The notes beneath the pieces were generated by a model. The model saw nothing but the letters and a program-made list of their open reading frames with translations. It was not told where the DNA came from and ran no database searches. Position numbers and translations under genes: made by a program. Below, in pieces: positions 7,365 to 16,514 of a DNA stretch of 23,408 bases. The DNA comes from Streptomyces wedmorensis (GTDB taxonomy: Bacteria; Actinomycetota; Actinomycetes; Streptomycetales; Streptomycetaceae), in the NCBI RefSeq assembly GCF_000716445.1, contig NZ_JNWK01000084.1, positions 1 through 23,408 on the forward strand, written 5' to 3'. Position 1 is the first letter of the stretch; each line of letters begins with the position of its first letter.

Positions 7365-9017
<1,653 letters not shown>

Positions 9018-9162: not shown

Positions 9163-9708
9163 CTACCGTACGGGGGTCAGCTCCGGGTCCTCCCGGAGCT
9201 TGCCGAGCGCCCTGGACACCGCGCTCTTGACCGTGCCGACCGACACCCCGAGCACCTCCGCGGTCTGCGCCTCGCTCAGGTCCTCGTAGTACCGCAGGAC
9301 CACCATCTGCCGCTGCCGCTCCGGCAGCTTCAGGACCGCGCGCCACATCGCGTCGTGCAGCACCTGACGCTCGGCCGGGTCCGGCTCCGGAAGACCGGTC
9401 GGCTCCGGCAGCTCCTCGCAGACGAACTCGTCGACCTTGCGCTTGCGCCACTGCGACGTGCGGGTGTTCAGCAGCGCCCGCCGGACGTAGCCGTCCAGCG
9501 CGCGGTGGTCCTCGATGCGCTCCCAGGCCACGAAGGTCTTGGCGAGCGCCGTCTGGAGCAGGTCCTCGGCGTCCGAGGGGTTGGCGGTCAGCGAACGCGC
9601 GGTGCGCAGCAGTACGGGCCCGCGCGCCCGGACGTACGAGGAGAAGGTCGGGTACGACGCGTACTGCGAGGCACCGGCGCAGACGGGGCCAGAGGGTGGC
9701 GGAGTCAT
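9163..9708 (-). CDS. ECF RNA polymerase sigma factor, SigE family
   Basis: This encodes 181 residues. The N-terminal sigma region 2 (about 24-90) includes YVRARGPVLLRTARSL, the core-binding DAEDLLQTALAKTFVAW, and YVRRALLNTRTSQWRKRK. After an acidic-proline linker, region 4 (about 120-175) carries LPERQRQMVVLRYYEDLS and the helix-turn-helix AEVLGVSVGTVKSAVSRAL. This matches the actinobacterial SigE family of short sigma-70-like factors, which direct RNA polymerase to a small regulon. No anti-sigma gene adjoins it. The ATG at 9708 has GGAG very close upstream (2-base gap), so the start is plausible but not certain. It is flanked by minus-strand genes with gaps of 145 and 225 bases, so it probably has its own promoter. 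Confidence 0.93.
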   Translation of the reverse strand: MTPPPSGPVCAGASQYASYPTFSSYVRARGPVLLRTARSLTANPSDAEDLLQTALAKTFVAWERIEDHRALDGYVRRALLNTRTSQWRKRKVDEFVCEELPEPTGLPEPDPAERQVLHDAMWRAVLKLPERQRQMVVLRYYEDLSEAQTAEVLGVSVGTVKSAVSRALGKLREDPELTPVR

Positions 9709-9933: not shown

Positions 9934-10974
9934 TCAGGGGGTCGGGGCGGTCGTGACGACGGCGACGGGTGCGTCCACCGCGCTGCGGTCGATCTGGAGA
10001 CTGCGACCGCCGTGCGACTCGGCGACGTCGCCCACGTACTGGTGGATCCGGGCGTGCGGCGTCCAGGCCGTCGGGTGCAGCGAGGACTCGACGTACAGCG
10101 AGGGACTGCCCCGCCAGCGCGCGAACCACATCACGGACGGCAGGTCCTTCGTACCCGCCTTCCGCTGCGCCTCCATGTCCCGCACCCCCGAATCGGCGCT
10201 GCTGTAGAAGCCCGGGACGTAGCCGAGGCGCCGCACCTCCCGGTTCCAGGCGCGGACGAAGCTGAGCGTGGTCGCGACGCAGCGCGCGTCATCCCGCCGG
10301 TAGGCCTCGATGTCGAGGTAGAGCGGGCTGCCGGCGCCGATCCCCAGGGCCCGCGCCGCCCGCACGGCGTCGCCCGCCTCCTGGGTGCCCTGCAGCGAGG
10401 GGCTGGTGCCGATGGCGTACTTCCGCTTGGCGGGTGCGATCACGCACGGTGCCTGGGAGCCGACGAAGAGGGGCAGCAGTCGCCAGCCCATGTCGTGGAC
10501 CGAGGTGACCCACGCGCGGCTGAGCTCCCGCTGCCCGGGGCATCCTCGGCCGCGGCCCCCGAAGTAGATTCCGACGGCCCCGTACGACGAGCTGCGCCAC
10601 GCCTTCATCACCGCGAGGGACGGCGCCTCGCAGGTGTCGAAGGCCTTGCCCACGTAGTACGCGGGTGTGGGCGCCGGAGCGGGTGCGGGTGCGCCTGGTC
10701 GTGTCCCCGCCGAGGCCGGGGCCGTCAGGAGCGCCGCCCCGGCCACCGCGGCCATCAGCGCGGCCACCGCGGCCCGCACCCCGGGACGGCGACGCGCCGC
10801 GGACGGGGAGCGGTTCGACCACTCACGGGGTACGGGTACGGGGCCGGGCTCGGGTACGGCGTCGGGTTCGGGTTCGGGTGCATCGTCGGCGGGGCCGGGT
10901 ACGAGGTCGGTCGGCGCGGCGGTGGGCGCGTCGTCGTCGGCGGGGGGTCTGGGGGGCCGGGATCCTGTGCTCAT
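9934..10974 (-). CDS. DUF1906 (Rv2525c-like) secreted glycoside-hydrolase-like protein
   Basis: This encodes 346 residues from the ATG at 10974; a GTG at 11010 in the same frame, 16 bases after the preceding gene, would add 12 residues. Neither has a good ribosome site. A Pro/Asp/Glu-rich stretch (about 1-60) precedes an RRRPG patch and a hydrophobic segment (about 66-88, ending APASA) that is a late signal peptide or anchor. The rest is a TIM-barrel-like DUF1906 domain: GKAFDTCEAPS (109-119), IYFGGRGRGC, LPLFVGSQ (167-174), YLDIEAY (219-225, with acidic D221 and E223 where GH25-like enzymes hold catalytic acids), GFYSSAD and HQYVGD. Family members such as Rv2525c are exported and linked to cell-wall biology; the substrate is not established. 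It may be co-transcribed with the operon above. Confidence 0.85.
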   Translation of the reverse strand: MSTGSRPPRPPADDDAPTAAPTDLVPGPADDAPEPEPDAVPEPGPVPVPREWSNRSPSAARRRPGVRAAVAALMAAVAGAALLTAPASAGTRPGAPAPAPAPTPAYYVGKAFDTCEAPSLAVMKAWRSSSYGAVGIYFGGRGRGCPGQRELSRAWVTSVHDMGWRLLPLFVGSQAPCVIAPAKRKYAIGTSPSLQGTQEAGDAVRAARALGIGAGSPLYLDIEAYRRDDARCVATTLSFVRAWNREVRRLGYVPGFYSSADSGVRDMEAQRKAGTKDLPSVMWFARWRGSPSLYVESSLHPTAWTPHARIHQYVGDVAESHGGRSLQIDRSAVDAPVAVVTTAPTP

Positions 10975-11026
10975 GGCGCGAGTGAAGAACCGCGAGCGCC
11001 GCCCGGCCACCGCTGGGCCCGTCGCC

Positions 11027-12193
11027 TCAGCCGTCCGTGCCCAGGATCAACCCGGACGTGGGAACACCGGTGCCCGCCGTGACCAGGGTCCGGGCCGCGC
11101 CGGGTATCTGGTTGACCGAGGTGCCGCGGAGCTGGCGTACCGCTTCCGCTATGCCGTTCATGCCGTGGAGGTAGGCCTCGCCGAGCTGGCCGCCGTGGGT
11201 GTTGATCGGGAGCGCGTCGGCCGCCACGAAGTCAGCCGCCTCGCCCGGCCCGCAGAAGCCGAACTCCTCCAACTGCATCAGCACGAACGGGGTGAAGTGG
11301 TCGTAGAGGATGCCCACGTCGATGTCGGTGGGGGCGAGCCCGGACGTCCGCCACAGCTGCCGGGCGACCACGCCCATCTCCGGAAGGCCGGTCAGTTCGT
11401 CGCGGTAGAAGCTGGTCATGGCCTCCTGCTTGCGTCCGGCGCCCTGCGCCGCCGCCAGGATCACGGCGGGCGGATGCCGCAGGTCGCGGGCGCGCTCGGC
11501 GGAGGTGACGACGATCGCCTGGCCGCCGTCGGTCTCCTGGCAGCAGTCGAGGAGCCGCAGCGGTTCGACGATCCAGCGCGAGGCGGCGTGGTCGGCGAGG
11601 GTGATGGGCTTCCCGTGGAAGTAGGCGGCGGGGTTGCGTGCCGCGTACCGCCGGTCGGTGACGGCGACGTGGCCGAAGGCGTCCGGCGTGAGGCCGTAGG
11701 CGTGGAGGTACCGCTGGGCGGCCATCGCGGCCCAGGAGGCCGGGGTGAGCAGTCCGAACGGCAGCTGCCAGCCGAGGGCGGCGCCTTCGGCGGAGGGCTC
11801 GCGCTGCTGGACGCCGGAGCCGAAGCGGCGGCCGGAGCGCTCGTTGAACGCCCGGTAGCAGACGACGACCTCGGCGACGCCGGCCGCGACGGCGAGCGCG
11901 GCCTGCTGCACGGTGGCGCAGGCCGCCCCGCCGCCGTAGTGCACGCGGGAGAAGAAGGACAGCTCGCCGATGCCGGCCGCCTGGGCGACGGTGATCTCGG
12001 GGTTGGTGTCCATGGTGAAGGTGACCAGGCCGTCGACGTCGGCGGGGGCGAGTCCGGCGTCGTCGAGGGCCGCCCGCACCGCCTCGACGGCGAGCGAGAG
12101 TTCGCTGCGGCCGGAGTCCTTGGAGAACTCGGTCGCGCCGATGCCGACGACGGCGGCCCGGCCGCCCAGGTCGTCCCGGGTGTGGAGGCTCAT
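11027..12193 (-). CDS. Ltp2-like thiolase-fold protein (probable retro-aldolase of steroid side-chain degradation)
   Basis: This encodes 388 residues. The ATG at 12193 overlaps the stop of the preceding gene (ATGA), with GGAGG 7 bases upstream. It is a thiolase-superfamily lipid-transfer-protein homologue: AAVVGIGATEFSKDSGRS at the start, GGGAACATVQQAALAVAAG around 87-105, and the C-terminal NTHGGQLGEAYLHGMN at 331-346. It lacks an ordinary thiolase Cys/His set. Tyr297 (ILYDHFTP) and Tyr341 (GEAYLHG) correspond to the two active-site tyrosines described for Ltp2 aldolases. In mycobacteria Ltp2 binds the DUF35 half of ChsH2 and cleaves the hydrated side chain, releasing propionyl-CoA from a 17-hydroxy steroid CoA ester. 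The ChsH2-like gene is in the same operon, which supports this. The natural substrate in this organism is inferred. Confidence 0.85.
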   Translation of the reverse strand: MSLHTRDDLGGRAAVVGIGATEFSKDSGRSELSLAVEAVRAALDDAGLAPADVDGLVTFTMDTNPEITVAQAAGIGELSFFSRVHYGGGAACATVQQAALAVAAGVAEVVVCYRAFNERSGRRFGSGVQQREPSAEGAALGWQLPFGLLTPASWAAMAAQRYLHAYGLTPDAFGHVAVTDRRYAARNPAAYFHGKPITLADHAASRWIVEPLRLLDCCQETDGGQAIVVTSAERARDLRHPPAVILAAAQGAGRKQEAMTSFYRDELTGLPEMGVVARQLWRTSGLAPTDIDVGILYDHFTPFVLMQLEEFGFCGPGEAADFVAADALPINTHGGQLGEAYLHGMNGIAEAVRQLRGTSVNQIPGAARTLVTAGTGVPTSGLILGTDG

Positions 12194-12573
12194 CGTCCGA
12201 CCTCCACGGTGACCGTCCCGGTGACGTGGTGTCCGAGCCCGTTCGCCCCGACGACCCTGACGTCGACCGTGTTCCCGTCCACCTCGGTCACCGTGCCGGT
12301 CAGGACCATGGTGTCCCCGGGGTGGTTGGGGGCGCCGAGCCGGATGGCGACCTTGCGGAGGACGGACTCGGGGCCGAAGTGGTCGGTGATGTAGCGGCCG
12401 ACGAGTCCGTTGGTGGTGAGGATGTTCATGAAGATGTCCGGGGACCCCTTCTCCCGGGCCAGCTCGGCGTCGTGGTGCACGTCCTGGTAGTCGCGCGATG
12501 CGACGGCCCCGGCGACGATCAGGGTGCGGGTGATCGGGATCCGCAGCGGCGGCAGCTCGTCCCCGGGCCTCAT
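12190..12573 (-). CDS. ChsH1-like MaoC-domain enoyl-CoA hydratase subunit
   Basis: This encodes 127 residues, a single hot-dog domain. The ATG at 12573 overlaps the TGA of the upstream dehydrogenase (ATGA) and has AAGGGAG about 9 bases before it. The hydratase-2 signature is present as D28-Y-Q-D-V-H33 (ASRDYQDVHHDAELAREKG), giving the Asp/His pair that activates water. FMNILTTNGLVGRYITDHFG and the later IRLGAPNHPGDTMVLTGTV complete the fold. In mycobacteria ChsH1 supplies the catalytic half of a heterotetramer with the MaoC half of ChsH2, hydrating a three-carbon enoyl-CoA steroid side chain. Its size and neighbours match that role. The reading frame runs far upstream as an antisense shadow, but only this part has a start signal and homology. 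Confidence 0.9.
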   Translation of the reverse strand: MRPGDELPPLRIPITRTLIVAGAVASRDYQDVHHDAELAREKGSPDIFMNILTTNGLVGRYITDHFGPESVLRKVAIRLGAPNHPGDTMVLTGTVTEVDGNTVDVRVVGANGLGHHVTGTVTVEVGR

Positions 12574-13844
12574 GACGGATCTCCCTTCGCGAGCAGGTCG
12601 CCGAGTTCGGCGAGGAGTTCGGTGCCGCAGCCCAGATAGGCGTCGAGCTGGCGGCCCCACAGGAAGTGGCGGTGGACGGGGTGGTCGAGGTCCGCGCCCA
12701 TGCCGCCGTGCAGGTGCTGCCCGGCGTGCACGACCCTCTTCCCTGCCTCGGAGGCCCACCAGGCGGCGGTCAGGGCCGCCGCCTCGGCGTCCAGGCCCTC
12801 GTCGAACCGCCACGCGGCCTCGTAGGCCGTGACCCGGATGGCCTCGGTGTCCATATGGGCGTCCGCGGCCCGTAGTTGCACCGCCTGGTGCGTGGCGAGC
12901 GGCCGCCCGAACTGTTCCCGTACCGAGGTGTACGCGACGGCTCTGGCCAGCGACCCGGCGCACACCCCGGCCTGCAACCCGGCGAACGCGATCCGCGCGG
13001 CGGCGAGCACGTCGTCGTGGGCCGCCGCCCGGGCTTCGGTGGGCGCCCCCGGCCGCTCGGCCGCCGCCCCCAGTCGCTCGGCGGGCGTCTCGGCCAGGAC
13101 GAGTCGGCCGGCCGACCAGGGCGCGGTGAGCTCGACGGACTCGACGGCCGCCGCGTCCTCCGTGCGGACCAGCCACAGGGCGCGGTCCGCGTCCGGGACG
13201 AGGACGTGGGTGGCGTCCCGGAGCCACGGCACCCAGTCCACGACGCCGCTGAGCCGTCTGCCGCCCGAGGCCGGAGGGAGTGGCTCGCCGCCGGAGACCG
13301 GAAGGAGTGACTCGCCGCCGGAGACCGGAAGGAGTGACTCGCCGCCGGAGACCGGAGGGAGTGGCTCGCCGATCGGGCCGGGCGGTGGGCCCGGCGTCGT
13401 CGGGTTCGGAGCGCGGCCCTGGCGAAGTTCGCCGCCATCGGCCGGGGCCGTGGCCCGGCCCCGTGCCTCGTGCGCCGTGGAGACCACGCCTCCTGCCGGC
13501 AGGGCGCCGGTGATCACCGTCGTGCCGTCGCGGAGGCCGGGGAGGAGGCGGGCGCGCTGCTCCGCGGTGCCGTGGCGGGTGACGGCGAGGAGCCCGTACA
13601 CGCAGGTCGCGGCGAAGGGGACCTGGGCGGTGACGCGGCCCTGTTCCTCCAGGAGGAGGACGAGGCCGAGGAGGCCGGTGTCCTCGACGGCGCCGGGGAG
13701 GCCGGCCGCGCAGAGTGCCTTCCAGAGTTCGGCGTCGGTGCCGGTGCCGGCGGCCCTGAGCCGCTCGTGGGTGGCGAGGTCGCCGAAGACGCGGGCGGCC
13801 AGCTCCCGGGCGGCCTCCTGCTCCTCGGTGGGGGTGAAGTCCAT
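12570..13844 (-). CDS. Acyl-CoA dehydrogenase, FadE28/ChsE1-like, with a tandem-repeat insert
   Basis: This encodes 424 residues. The ATG at 13844 lies 1 base after the ChsH2-like stop and has GGGGAGG 6 bases upstream. The N-terminal helical domain (about 1-95, MDFTPTEEQEAARELAARVF) and the C-terminal helical domain (about 260-420, with YTSVREQFGRPLATHQAVQ, AWWASEAGK, and QHLHGGMGADLDHPVHRHF) are clear. The middle beta domain is reduced and interrupted by a Pro/Gly/Ser-rich insert at about 125-200 containing four 9-residue repeats (GESLLPVSG type). In mycobacteria FadE28 and FadE29 form an alpha2-beta2 dehydrogenase in which the subunits share one FAD site. A partner gene is in the same operon. 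The weakened flavin-binding region suits the non-catalytic-partner idea, which is inference. Confidence 0.9.
   Translation of the reverse strand: MDFTPTEEQEAARELAARVFGDLATHERLRAAGTGTDAELWKALCAAGLPGAVEDTGLLGLVLLLEEQGRVTAQVPFAATCVYGLLAVTRHGTAEQRARLLPGLRDGTTVITGALPAGGVVSTAHEARGRATAPADGGELRQGRAPNPTTPGPPPGPIGEPLPPVSGGESLLPVSGGESLLPVSGGEPLPPASGGRRLSGVVDWVPWLRDATHVLVPDADRALWLVRTEDAAAVESVELTAPWSAGRLVLAETPAERLGAAAERPGAPTEARAAAHDDVLAAARIAFAGLQAGVCAGSLARAVAYTSVREQFGRPLATHQAVQLRAADAHMDTEAIRVTAYEAAWRFDEGLDAEAAALTAAWWASEAGKRVVHAGQHLHGGMGADLDHPVHRHFLWGRQLDAYLGCGTELLAELGDLLAKGDPS
13257..13364. repeat. 27-bp in-frame tandem repeat inside the FadE28-like gene
   Basis: Three near-identical 27-bp units (13284-13310, 13311-13337, 13338-13364) follow a diverged fourth copy at 13257-13283. 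The unit core is GGAGACCGGAAGGAGTGA. Being nine codons long, changes in copy number keep the reading frame. Confidence 0.9.
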
Positions 13845-13845
13845 G

Positions 13846-14784
13846 TCAGTCCTCCCCTCCCGCGCGGAAGACGGGGAGCTCGAGCTCCTCGTCGGCCCGC
13901 AGGAACTCCAGCCGGACCGGCATCCCGATCCGCACCTTGTCGTACGGCACTCCCACCACGTTGCTGATCATCCGTACGCCCTCGGCGAGTTCGATCAGTC
14001 CCACCGCGTAAGGGGGGTCGAAGGCCGGGAAGGACGGGTGGTGCATCACCACGTACGAGAAGACGGTCCCGGCGCCGCTCGCCTCGACCGTGTCCCATTC
14101 CCCCGAGCCGCAGTCGGCGCAGCCCGGCAGCCAGGGGAAGCGGAGGGCCGCGCAGTCGCCGCAGCGCTGGATGAGCAGTCTGTGCGCGGCCACCCCCTCC
14201 CAGAACCCGGCGTTGTCCCGGTTGACCACGGGTCGGGGCCGCCTGGCGGGCGGCCGCTCAGCGCCGGTGCCGGTCGCGGGGGGCCGGCCGGCGGGGGCGT
14301 ACTTGAGGATGCGGAAGCGGTGGGTGCCGGCGAGGGTGCCGCCGGTCCGCACGTCCATCCGCGTCGTCACGAAGTGCCCCGTGCCGAGCTTGGTGGTCTT
14401 GCGCGGCGAGACGGACTCGATGACGGCGTCGAAGGTGATCTCGTCGCCCGGCCGCAGGGGCCGCAGGTACTCCTGCTCGCAGTCCGTCGCGACCACCGAG
14501 GTGTATCCGGCACCGTCGAGGAGGGCGGACAGCTCCTCGTATGCCCCAGAGCGGTCGGTGTGCCCGGAGAGGCCGCCCATCGTCCACGCCTGGAGCATGG
14601 TCGGGGGAGCGATCGCGTCGGGTCCGCGGTAGGCGGGGTGGGTGTCCCCCATGGCCTCGCACCAGTGCCGGATCATGGGCAGGTTGACCGGGTCCTTGCC
14701 GGTGCCCCCGGTGGCGGCCGGCCGGCCCTCGTACGCGGCGAGCAGCTCGTACAGCCCGTCCGCGGTCGGTTCGGTGCCGCTCAT
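13846..14784 (-). CDS. ChsH2-like MaoC + DUF35 bifunctional protein
   Basis: This encodes 312 residues. The ATG at 14784 overlaps the stop of the upstream gene (ATGA), with GGGGAGG 7-8 bases before it. The N-terminal half (about 10-165) is a MaoC-like hot-dog domain (MIRHWCEAMGDTHPAYRGPD, and EQEYLRPLRPGDEITFDA). A Pro/Arg-rich linker (about 165-190) leads to a DUF35 domain (about 190-310): a zinc ribbon with cysteines 208, 211, 222 and 225 (QRCGDCAALRF, LPGCADCGSGEW), then an OB-fold (GTVFSYVVMHHPSFPAFDPPYAVGLIEL). The size is nearly that of mycobacterial ChsH2 (about 311). There the MaoC half pairs with ChsH1 for hydration and the DUF35 half docks Ltp2 for aldol cleavage. All partners are encoded alongside, strongly supporting a functional complex. 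Confidence 0.92.
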   Translation of the reverse strand: MSGTEPTADGLYELLAAYEGRPAATGGTGKDPVNLPMIRHWCEAMGDTHPAYRGPDAIAPPTMLQAWTMGGLSGHTDRSGAYEELSALLDGAGYTSVVATDCEQEYLRPLRPGDEITFDAVIESVSPRKTTKLGTGHFVTTRMDVRTGGTLAGTHRFRILKYAPAGRPPATGTGAERPPARRPRPVVNRDNAGFWEGVAAHRLLIQRCGDCAALRFPWLPGCADCGSGEWDTVEASGAGTVFSYVVMHHPSFPAFDPPYAVGLIELAEGVRMISNVVGVPYDKVRIGMPVRLEFLRADEELELPVFRAGGED

Positions 14785-15992
14785 CGCCGTCCCCTCCCCT
14801 TCATGCCGAGCCGCATCCTCGCGACGATCTCGCGCTGCACCTCGCTCACCCCTCCCCCGAAGGTGTTGATCTGCGCGGCGCGGTTCATGCGCTCCAGCTC
14901 ACCGCCGTCGAACTCCCCCGGCGATCCCGCTCGCACCGTGCCCGCCCCGCCCGCGATCTCCTGACATATTCGATACACCTCCACCGCCGATTCGGTTCCC
15001 GCGAACTTCACGCCGCTCGCGTCCCCCGGGGCCAGCCGGCCGGCCCCCACGTCCCCCACGAGACGCCAGTTCAGCAGGCGTGTCGCGGCCAGCCGGGCAT
15101 GTGCCTCGGCGGCCCTGATCCGGACCCACGACTCGTCAACGCGGCGCCTACCCGTCACCGGATCGGGGGTACGCGCTCGGTCGAGCACGGCCGCGAAGAA
15201 GTCCTCCGCCTGCATGCCGATCGCGGCGAGCGCGACCCGCTCGTGGTTGAGCTGGCTGGTGATGAGCCCCCAGCCGCCGTGCTCGGGCCCGACGAGGTTC
15301 CCCGCGGGGACCCGGATCCCGTCGTAGTACGTCGCGGTCGTCGTCAGCCCGCCCACGGTCGCGATCGGGGTCCAGGAGAAGCCGGGGGCGTCGGTGGGGA
15401 CCAGCACGATGGAGATGCCCTTGTGCGGGGGCGCGTCGGGATCGGTGCGGCAGGCGAGCCAGATCCAGTCGGCGTTCTGCGCGTTGGAGGTGAAGATCTT
15501 CTGCCCGTCGATCACCCAGGAGCCGACGTCGCCGGGACTACCGCCCGGCGTGCTCCCCGCCGGCCCGGCCGGGTCCCGCACGGCCCGGGTGCGGAGCGAG
15601 GCGAGGTCCGTGCCCGCCTCGGGCTCGCTGTACCCGATGGCGAAGACGGTCTCGCCCCGCAGGATCCGGGGCAGGAAGTAGGCCTTCTGCTCCTCGGTCC
15701 CGTACGCCATCAACGTGGGCCCGACGGTGTTGAGGGTGACCATCGAGACGGGGGCGCCCGCCCGGTACGCCTCGTCGAAGAAGACGAACTGCTCGTCGGG
15801 GCCCCGCCCCTGCCCGCCGTACTCCTCGGGCCAGCCGAGTCCCAGCAGCCCGTCGGCGCCGATGCGGCGGAGCAGCCGGCGCTGTGCGCCGGTGTCGTCC
15901 GCGGGAGGCGGGCCGTCGGGCATCAGCTCCCTGAAGTACGCGCGGAGTTCGGCGCGCAGCCGCAGCTGCCGCTCGGTCGGGGCGAGGTGCAC
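14781..15992 (-). CDS. Acyl-CoA dehydrogenase, FadE29/ChsE2-like
   Basis: This encodes 403 residues. The GTG at 15992 is chosen because GGGAGG stands 8 bases upstream and the protein then starts HLAPTERQLRLRAELRAYF, as in FadE29; the frame is open for another 45 codons upstream without homology. Motifs: GLGWPEEYGGQGRGPDEQ (51-68), the FAD/substrate motif FAIGYSEPEAGTDLASL (117-133), NADWIWLACRTDP (173-185), LNHERVALA (248-256, probable catalytic Glu251), and the C-terminal NTFGGGVSEVQREIVARM (376-393) close to that of mycobacterial FadE29. It is the first gene of the operon and probably forms a mixed dehydrogenase with the FadE28-like protein, introducing the double bond into a short side-chain CoA ester. 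FAD is the expected cofactor. The assignment is by motif order and context; the substrate is inferred. Confidence 0.92.
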   Translation of the reverse strand: MHLAPTERQLRLRAELRAYFRELMPDGPPPADDTGAQRRLLRRIGADGLLGLGWPEEYGGQGRGPDEQFVFFDEAYRAGAPVSMVTLNTVGPTLMAYGTEEQKAYFLPRILRGETVFAIGYSEPEAGTDLASLRTRAVRDPAGPAGSTPGGSPGDVGSWVIDGQKIFTSNAQNADWIWLACRTDPDAPPHKGISIVLVPTDAPGFSWTPIATVGGLTTTATYYDGIRVPAGNLVGPEHGGWGLITSQLNHERVALAAIGMQAEDFFAAVLDRARTPDPVTGRRRVDESWVRIRAAEAHARLAATRLLNWRLVGDVGAGRLAPGDASGVKFAGTESAVEVYRICQEIAGGAGTVRAGSPGEFDGGELERMNRAAQINTFGGGVSEVQREIVARMRLGMKGRGRR

Positions 15993-16057: not shown

Positions 16058-16129
16058 GGTCGCCGACGGCCGCACCCGCCTCCGGAGCTCGCCGGAACCC
16101 CGGGCACGACAGCGCGACGGCCCGCACGC

Positions 16130-16208: not shown

Positions 16209-16514
16209 TCACCACCACGGAAGGAAGTTGACCACGTTGTTCGACTGGGCGATGTGGGTGAAGGCGGAGCCGTTCACACTCGCGGTGTTGTTCTGGTTGG
16301 AGGCACCGGAACCGGTCGCCACCTGCTGCGTCGTGGTCGAGTTGCCGTGGTTGTCCCCGCCCACGCCGCTGCCGATGATCGTGGCGACGCTCGTGTTCGA
16401 TCCGTCGTCCGCGAACCCGCCGTTGTCGGCCTGGGCCACCCCCGTGAAGAGCGCGGCGGCGAGGGGCAGGGCGGCGGCAGCGGCGAGGATGCGGGCGGTA
16501 CGGATGCTTGCCAT
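16209..16514 (-). CDS. Small secreted Asn/Gly/Ser/Thr-rich protein
   Basis: This encodes 101 residues. The ATG at 16514 has GGAGGA 7-8 bases upstream. Residues 1-29 are a signal peptide (SIRTARILAAAAALPLAAALF then GVAQA cleavage site). The mature 72 residues contain no Cys and many Asn, Gly, Ser, Thr and Gln (GNSTTTQQVATGSGASNQNN, SVNGSAFTHIAQSNNVVNF) and end in LPWW. Alternating polar and small hydrophobic residues resemble beta-rich surface proteins such as curlin-type or rodlin-type polypeptides, but I cannot match it to chaplins or rodlins. Export is well supported; an aggregating or surface-coat role is speculation. It is monocistronic, with about 420 gene-free bases upstream. Confidence 0.8.
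   Translation of the reverse strand: MASIRTARILAAAAALPLAAALFTGVAQADNGGFADDGSNTSVATIIGSGVGGDNHGNSTTTQQVATGSGASNQNNTASVNGSAFTHIAQSNNVVNFLPWW

Follow-up and report, generated by a model that had tools for sequence, protein, structure and literature searches.

A complete igr-type operon in Streptomyces wedmorensis, probably part of a dispersed module for sterol side chains

Locus layout and gene content

The window analyzed here is a 23,408-base stretch of Streptomyces wedmorensis DNA that makes up the entire contig C84 of a 9.38-Mb genome. Its minus strand carries an igr-type operon at positions 11027–15992, in which all five igr subunits (ChsE1, ChsE2, ChsH1, ChsH2 and Ltp2) are encoded together with junctions of 1–4 bases, in the order FadE29, ChsH2, FadE28, ChsH1, Ltp2. 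The operon and a palindrome in front of it comprise the following features, given with matches in PDB, Pfam or NCBIfam.

14781..15992, minus strand: FadE29/ChsE2-type acyl-coenzyme A (acyl-CoA) dehydrogenase subunit, first gene of the operon; PDB 6wy8_B, 396 bits (query from an earlier GTG at 16127)
13846..14784, minus strand: ChsH2, with a MaoC-like half, a zinc ribbon and DUF35/OB; Pfam PF13452, PF12172 and PF01796
12570..13844, minus strand: FadE28/ChsE1-type acyl-CoA dehydrogenase subunit; PDB 6wy8_A, 200 bits
12190..12573, minus strand: ChsH1, the catalytic MaoC half; PDB 4wnb_B/4w78_B, 114 bits
11027..12193, minus strand: Ltp2-type retro-aldolase; NCBIfam NF005892 (PRK07855), 666.7 bits
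16024..16040, minus strand: putative operator TCTGACGGACAGTCAGA, a palindrome 32 bases upstream of the FadE29 start codon

An earlier note on this DNA had described five coupled minus-strand genes here, and the coordinates of all five confirm it. The note also described the junctions as ATGA or one-base overlaps; three are indeed 4-base ATGA-type overlaps, while the fourth, between ChsH2 and FadE28, is actually a one-base gap at 13845. The FadE29 start codon is a GTG at 15992 with GGGAGG 8 bases upstream, and from this codon 403 of 403 residues are aligned in three close relatives (L071–L073); the upstream in-frame GTG at 16127 is a less likely alternative.

Protein identities and catalytic residues

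Ltp2 has the clearest family assignment, with 666.7 bits to the ‘lipid-transfer protein’ family NF005892/PRK07855 against a cut-off of 469, and 226 bits to its second-best family. A non-igr thiolase was considered as another identity and rejected on this comparison (667 versus 226 bits). Among PDB structures the protein matches 6ok1_A at 564 bits, the second-best at 174 and Sal (9myr) at 143. Its nearest named relatives are found in Streptomyces griseoluteus and Streptomyces zaomyceticus at 96% identity, in a list that may omit the genome itself; Streptomyces venezuelae has an Ltp2 of 95–96% identity. The motif YDHF lies at residues 297–300, and Tyr297, His299 and Tyr341 align with active-site residues of 6ok1_A. 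In the Thermomonospora curvata enzyme (6ok1), the active site consists of Tyr294 and His296 of YDHF together with Tyr344, as given in the accessible portion of the source (PMC12329534). YDHF is present in 60 of the 61 Ltp2-family rows examined, the sole exception being a paralogue on contig C31 of the same genome that has YDAF. All 40 core Streptomyces rows, which form a group of their own in the Ltp2 tree at 92/77, slightly below the usual mark, keep the motif. Tree building had been suggested in the earlier note, and the window Ltp2 groups with igr-type Ltp2 of Streptomyces and other genera, not with unrelated thiolases.

The two hydratase subunits differ at the active-site position. In the MaoC-like half of ChsH2 a tyrosine replaces the catalytic histidine (GDTHPAY), followed by the zinc ribbon and DUF35; the DUF35 half matches 6ok1_B at 158 bits and the MaoC half 4wnb_A/4w78_A at 103 bits. 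ChsH1, whose match to Pfam PF01575 is barely above the cut-off, retains the Asp...His pair (RDYQDVHHD), with the position of the dyad matched by eye. The same division, an Asp/His dyad in one subunit and Tyr for His in the other, is described for mycobacterial ChsH1 and ChsH2 in the available text of PMC11321319.

The dehydrogenase subunits match opposite chains of both 6wy8 and 4x28. With the query from the earlier GTG, FadE29 reaches 357 bits to 4x28_A and 131 bits to its second-best match; the corresponding values for FadE28 are 97 bits to 4x28_D and 65 bits. We take 4x28 and 4w78 to be Mycobacterium tuberculosis structures. FadE28 also contains a 27-base repeat in 4.1 copies (13260–13371), which is in frame, encodes SGGE..PPV/LLPV units and sits where two halves of the ChsE1 alignment separate.

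Family and structure matches, catalytic residues and operon order agree on the igr identity that the earlier note had given all five proteins, and on these sequence comparisons we regard the predicted complete igr-type operon at 11027–15992, with the checked catalytic residues kept, as confirmed.

Pathway partners elsewhere in the genome

The earlier note saw no steroid-ring genes in the window. None was recognized there, and ring genes are found elsewhere in the genome, on separate contigs. The single KshA match of the genome (293 bits) lies on contig C16, surrounded by HsaA (626.9 bits, cut-off 450), FadD3 (687.8, cut-off 657), HsaF, HsaG, an EchA20-type hydratase and a FadA6-type thiolase, all over their cut-offs. 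A genome search for kshA, hsaC and kstD, proposed in the note, thus led to a ring cluster on C16, in which HsaC and KstD, as well as HsaB and HsaE, are best in family yet below cut-off. Four further genes are presumably IpdA, IpdB, IpdC and KshB, names given from position and recall; IpdA and IpdB on C16 have no NCBIfam match at 1e-40, and IpdC and KshB match general families. The 60 kb read from C16 contain no match to Ltp2, ChsH1 or ChsH2, and the genome's six DUF35 places all lie on other contigs. Two adjacent HsaA-type oxygenases (C16:76871-78019 and 78340-79485) are both over the cut-off, at 530 and 627 bits.

Contig C37 encodes a FadA5-family thiolase (693–694 bits, cut-off 515; 520 bits to FadA5 in PDB) and, divergent from it, a CYP125 (510 bits to CYP125 in PDB). 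This pair is not adjacent to the operon, being on C37 and the operon on C84; in another genome, G318, one contig carries both places at a distance of about 1.75 Mb. Contig C31 (L009:4586-8595) carries the second PRK07855-family aldolase, with 587 bits (cut-off 469) and about 47% identity to the window Ltp2. This aldolase has the YDAF motif, and its neighbors are a FadD3-family ligase, a hydratase and a DUF35 protein encoded separately. Palindromes lie in the gap between the divergent genes, and the set is a candidate to act on branched side chains of sterols. On contig C88 (L113:10285-11475) we found a solo FadE29-like dehydrogenase, 55% identical to the window FadE29, which could serve operons reduced to three genes (see below).

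Distribution in Streptomyces

The distribution of the pathway was assessed in 343 Streptomyces genomes, evenly drawn from a larger group. Ltp2 was found at E ≤1e-60 in 249 of them, and removal of four at paralogue level only (G073, G142, G201 and G237, about 50%, E 1e-90 to 1e-102), which were counted as negative, leaves 245. Three genomes counted as positive (G036, G180 and G195, E 1e-154 to 1e-174) may have another type. FadA5 is over cut-off in 249 genomes, and with kinship ignored the two genes occur together in 244, Ltp2 without FadA5 in 1, FadA5 without Ltp2 in 5 and neither in 93. The exceptions include G003, G111 and G266 with FadA5 and no Ltp2, and G144 with Ltp2 and no FadA5. A FadE29-like protein at E ≤1e-100 accompanies Ltp2 in 241 genomes, with 4 genomes having Ltp2 only, 3 the FadE29-like protein alone and 95 neither. 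CYP125 was found in 26 of the 34 genomes searched, being absent from seven Ltp2-negative ones and from G008, and wherever the listed matches give both places (17 of 17 genomes), the FadA5 and CYP125 genes are divergent neighbors.

HsaA (over cut-off) and KshA are each found in 36 of the 343 genomes. Across the genus, the operon is not bound to ring degradation. We rejected, as the general case, the idea that the operon was acquired with its own ring cluster, because the 60 kb of C16 lack Ltp2, ChsH1 and ChsH2 and because the Ltp2 orthologue is far more widely spread (245 genomes) than each ring marker (36). In one genome, G152, ring genes are present and both Ltp2 and FadA5 are missing. A previous survey (Bergstrand et al. 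2016; PMC4810484), as far as its accessible text goes, reports that 55 of 57 Streptomyces genomes lack a steroid pathway and that 1 of more than 50 has the cholesterol pathway. Our literature search, which covered titles and abstract openings with subscription papers mostly outside it, returned no report of a genus-wide igr/FadA5 module in Streptomyces. The enzymes are of a known kind; their genus-wide uncoupling from the rings is without report in that search.

Conservation of the locus and an upstream palindrome

We examined 20 core loci first and then 19 more selected for HsaA-positive genomes. Ltp2 and ChsH1 are present in 20 of the first 20, ChsH2 in 19 and FadE29 in 13. Operons reduced to ChsH2-ChsH1-Ltp2 make up 6 of these 20 and 1 of the 19 from HsaA-positive genomes; L078 was excluded from the reduced class on account of an assembly break, its FadE29 being on another contig. 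We also compared 80 named Streptomyces loci, which were picked as the closest by identity rather than at random and share genomes with the genus sample. The gene order of the window is found in all 57 complete operons among them.

The palindrome TCTGACGGACAGTCAGA has a single match in the window at ≤2 mismatches, with 0 expected, and a literature search for the letters of this operator gave no match. Of 40 core loci, 39 have a single TGAC-N5-GTCA site, and CTGAC-N5-GTCAG is found within 600 bp upstream of the operon in 61 of the 62 named loci whose sequence reaches the upstream gene, including reduced operons. The space between FadA5 and CYP125 holds a looser palindrome in 8 of 8 loci, and such a site is also found near other beta-oxidation genes of the same genome. 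A regulon built from 14 palindrome sites was not used as proof, because only 4 of the 14 directly precede catabolic genes (the window operon, an acyl-CoA dehydrogenase, an acyl-CoA synthetase and a short-chain dehydrogenase/reductase locus); in this search the control pattern gave 1 match versus 17 rows for the real one. On contig C37 (L105:4099-7496), the palindrome TTCTGACGGAAGGTCAGAAA precedes genes for a 728-residue acyl-CoA dehydrogenase and a lipid-transfer protein (PRK08256, 618 bits).

Comparison with other igr loci and known systems

Within the class, 58 of 246 genomes, 14 Streptomyces genomes included, and 19 of 103 genera have Ltp2 at E ≤1e-100. Six of 12 loci from other genera have the order FadE28-FadE29-ChsH2-ChsH1-Ltp2, two have the window order and four have other layouts. 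The first of these orders, seen in L187 and L188 from another family, is presumably that of the igr operon in M. tuberculosis (chsE1-chsE2-chsH2-chsH1-ltp2). In L187 and L188, FadA5 and CYP125 stand directly beside the igr operon, a layout that we likewise take to be that of M. tuberculosis. In L192, FadA5 and a partial CYP125 match surround ChsH2-ChsH1-Ltp2, and no FadE28 or FadE29 is in view.

The window operon resembles the M. tuberculosis igr operon in its predicted gene content, with the same five genes for a two-subunit dehydrogenase, a two-subunit hydratase with DUF35 and an Ltp2 aldolase. It differs in its order (ChsE2-ChsH2-ChsE1-ChsH1-Ltp2), in having FadA5 and CYP125 unlinked and in having no KstR motif in the window. 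Identity between the window proteins and those of the mycobacterial-type L188 is 47% for FadE29, 32% for FadE28, 40% for ChsH2, 46% for ChsH1 and 68% for Ltp2. The steroid clusters of four genomes fetched for their top HsaA scores (G179, G155, G195 and G289) all contain an igr operon among ring genes in an order identical to that of the window, with Ltp2 69–71% identical to the window Ltp2. Unlike the window operon, these are flanked by ring genes on a chromosome arm or cluster contig, and their Ltp2 falls outside the core group, grouping in the Ltp2 tree with three rows from another family (100/100). In the stretches fetched of the ring clusters of G318, G023 and G012, no igr operon was found. 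As the window order occurs inside steroid clusters, we do not treat the mycobacterial order as defining igr; the earlier note was right that the order differs, but the order is not peculiar to this locus, being shared by the 57 named operons, the four steroid clusters and two of the 12 other-genus loci.

The best structural relatives of Ltp2 (564 bits), DUF35, FadE28 and FadE29 are the T. curvata structures 6ok1 and 6wy8. For T. curvata, the part of a 2025 paper open to us states that chsE1E2 were not found close to the remaining genes (PMC12502768), unlike the window, in which all five are together. Judged from the accessible parts of PMC12502768 and PMC12329534, Comamonas testosteroni ORF40-44 and Sal/Shy, which act on bile acid side chains, share the step types and the aldolase–DUF35 partnership. 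These systems are however proteobacterial and of low identity, Sal having YDCY versus YDHF in the window and 9myr scoring 143 versus 564 bits.

Proposed function and alternative explanations

We consider it likely, with a probability of roughly 0.8, that the operon carries out the last round of sterol side-chain beta-oxidation as one arm of a dispersed module with the unlinked FadA5–CYP125 pair. The earlier note left the substrate open. A steroid-type C22 acyl-CoA now appears the likeliest, because the same genome has the ring cluster on C16 and the FadA5–CYP125 pair, and these pathway partners point to steroids and not to a different pathway, the outcome that the note had named as a refutation. 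The reactions are assigned from knowledge of the enzyme families. CYP125 and earlier beta-oxidation would shorten the sterol side chain, and FadA5 would yield the steroid C22 acyl-CoA. ChsE1–ChsE2 (FadE28–FadE29) would then desaturate this compound, ChsH1–ChsH2 would hydrate the product, and Ltp2, bound to the ChsH2 DUF35 domain, would release propionyl-CoA and a 17-ketosteroid by retro-aldol cleavage. In this genome and other ring-positive strains, the 17-ketosteroid could be degraded further by ring cleavage. In strains without ring genes the pathway would end at this compound; most carriers, in which no ring marker was found, would thus consume the side chain and leave the ring product.

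Several findings weigh against this reading. Among the 244 genomes with both Ltp2 and FadA5, 208 have neither KshA nor HsaA and 36 have either, and the link among Ltp2, FadA5 and CYP125, for which kinship was ignored, could reflect loss in a small number of clades; the contiguous genes of L187 and L188 give the link independent support. The CoA ligase adjacent to the operon is over the cut-off for no steroid ligase family in NCBIfam, with 218 bits to the steroid-24-oyl-CoA synthetase CasG (cut-off 750). No palindrome was found in the ring-cluster stretches read of this genome, so an operator common to the igr operon and the ring cluster was dropped, and the KstR motif TnnAACnnGTTnnA, as given in the accessible text of PMC1995591, has 0 window matches at ≤1 mismatch. 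The dehydrogenase genes are also far from universal: 57 of the 80 named loci are complete, 22 are reduced to three genes and 1 is partial, and the core FadE29 was found in at least 127 of 245 Ltp2 carriers.

This last point would be explained if the operon were a decaying relic of full steroid degradation, working only in the minority of strains that have kept or regained a ring cluster, which we think unlikely. FadE28 and FadE29 have been lost repeatedly, with five changes to the reduced state on the Ltp2 tree, at least two of them forced by well-supported branches, and the core FadE29 occurs in at least 31 of 35 KshA-positive but at least 96 of 210 KshA-negative Ltp2 carriers (raw counts). 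A paired test of ring genes versus complete operon on the Ltp2 tree found four independent pairs (p = 1), however, and we do not claim that ring genomes keep FadE28 and FadE29 more often, because the test is not significant and the pairs are too few. Decay is further at odds with the 65–96% identity of ChsH2, ChsH1 and Ltp2 across loci, the palindrome kept before reduced operons too, and YDHF in every core Ltp2 row. More doubtful still is an action on a non-steroid branched acyl-CoA attached to a ring carbon, such as one from a terpenoid or secondary metabolite. It would account for the ring-less carriers and agrees with the scores of the adjacent ligase and with the 32–47% identity of the window proteins, Ltp2 excepted, to the mycobacterial-type set of L188. 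Against it stand the co-distribution with FadA5 and CYP125, relatives of steroid enzymes, the contiguous FadA5-CYP125-igr arrangement in L187 and L188, the inert steroid-binding half retained by ChsH2 and the steroid enzymes that are the best structure matches. That the hydratase–aldolase part works in reverse, building a propionate-branched product by aldol addition, is hardly plausible: its sole point is the existence of reduced operons without a dehydrogenase, and such a reaction would be unfavorable beside the catabolic FadA5 and CYP125, with no biosynthetic cluster beside the operon in the loci examined.

Returning to sterol side-chain oxidation, a broader form of this proposal, which we put somewhat short of an even chance, is that most Streptomyces strip sterol side chains through a co-retained CYP125/FadA5/igr module and leave the rings as 17-ketosteroids, with functional three-gene operons borrowing a dehydrogenase. 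The module would probably also hold the unlinked FadE29-like dehydrogenase and the second Ltp2–DUF35 set, while full ring degradation would be an accessory trait in about one-tenth of genomes. Side chains of fungal and plant sterols could in this way yield propionyl-CoA and acetyl-CoA as a feed of polyketide precursors. CYP125A13 of Streptomyces peucetius hydroxylates cholesterol at C27, according to the available part of PMC9728343. In Streptomyces preying on yeast, sterols are depleted and cyp125A13 and choD rise, with up to 60.5% of the sterols remaining for Streptomyces lividans TK24 and strong loss for Streptomyces platensis among the eight strains studied, as far as the accessible text of that study shows (PMC13170338). 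If the proposal is true, steroid side-chain metabolism would be widespread in Streptomyces, having been overlooked in the genus owing to its separation from the degradation of the rings. The proposal would then offer a genetic basis for the sterol loss reported during predation on yeast in that same text, make capable strains predictable, and provide enzymes that yield 17-ketosteroids without ring destruction.

Neighboring genes

Two conserved downstream neighbors of the operon, both found in 20 of 20 core loci, are the following.

9163..9708, minus strand: extracytoplasmic function (ECF)-type sigma factor; Pfam Sigma70_r2/r4
7365..9017, minus strand: acyl-CoA ligase; NCBIfam PRK06187, 677 bits (cut-off 476)

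Between Ltp2 and the sigma factor gene, a Rv2525c-like glycoside-hydrolase-type protein (9934–11010) is encoded in part of the core loci only. Upstream of the operon, a small secreted-looking protein (16209–16514), whose longer open reading frame is without a Pfam or NCBIfam match, has a match at this position in every one of the 20 core loci.

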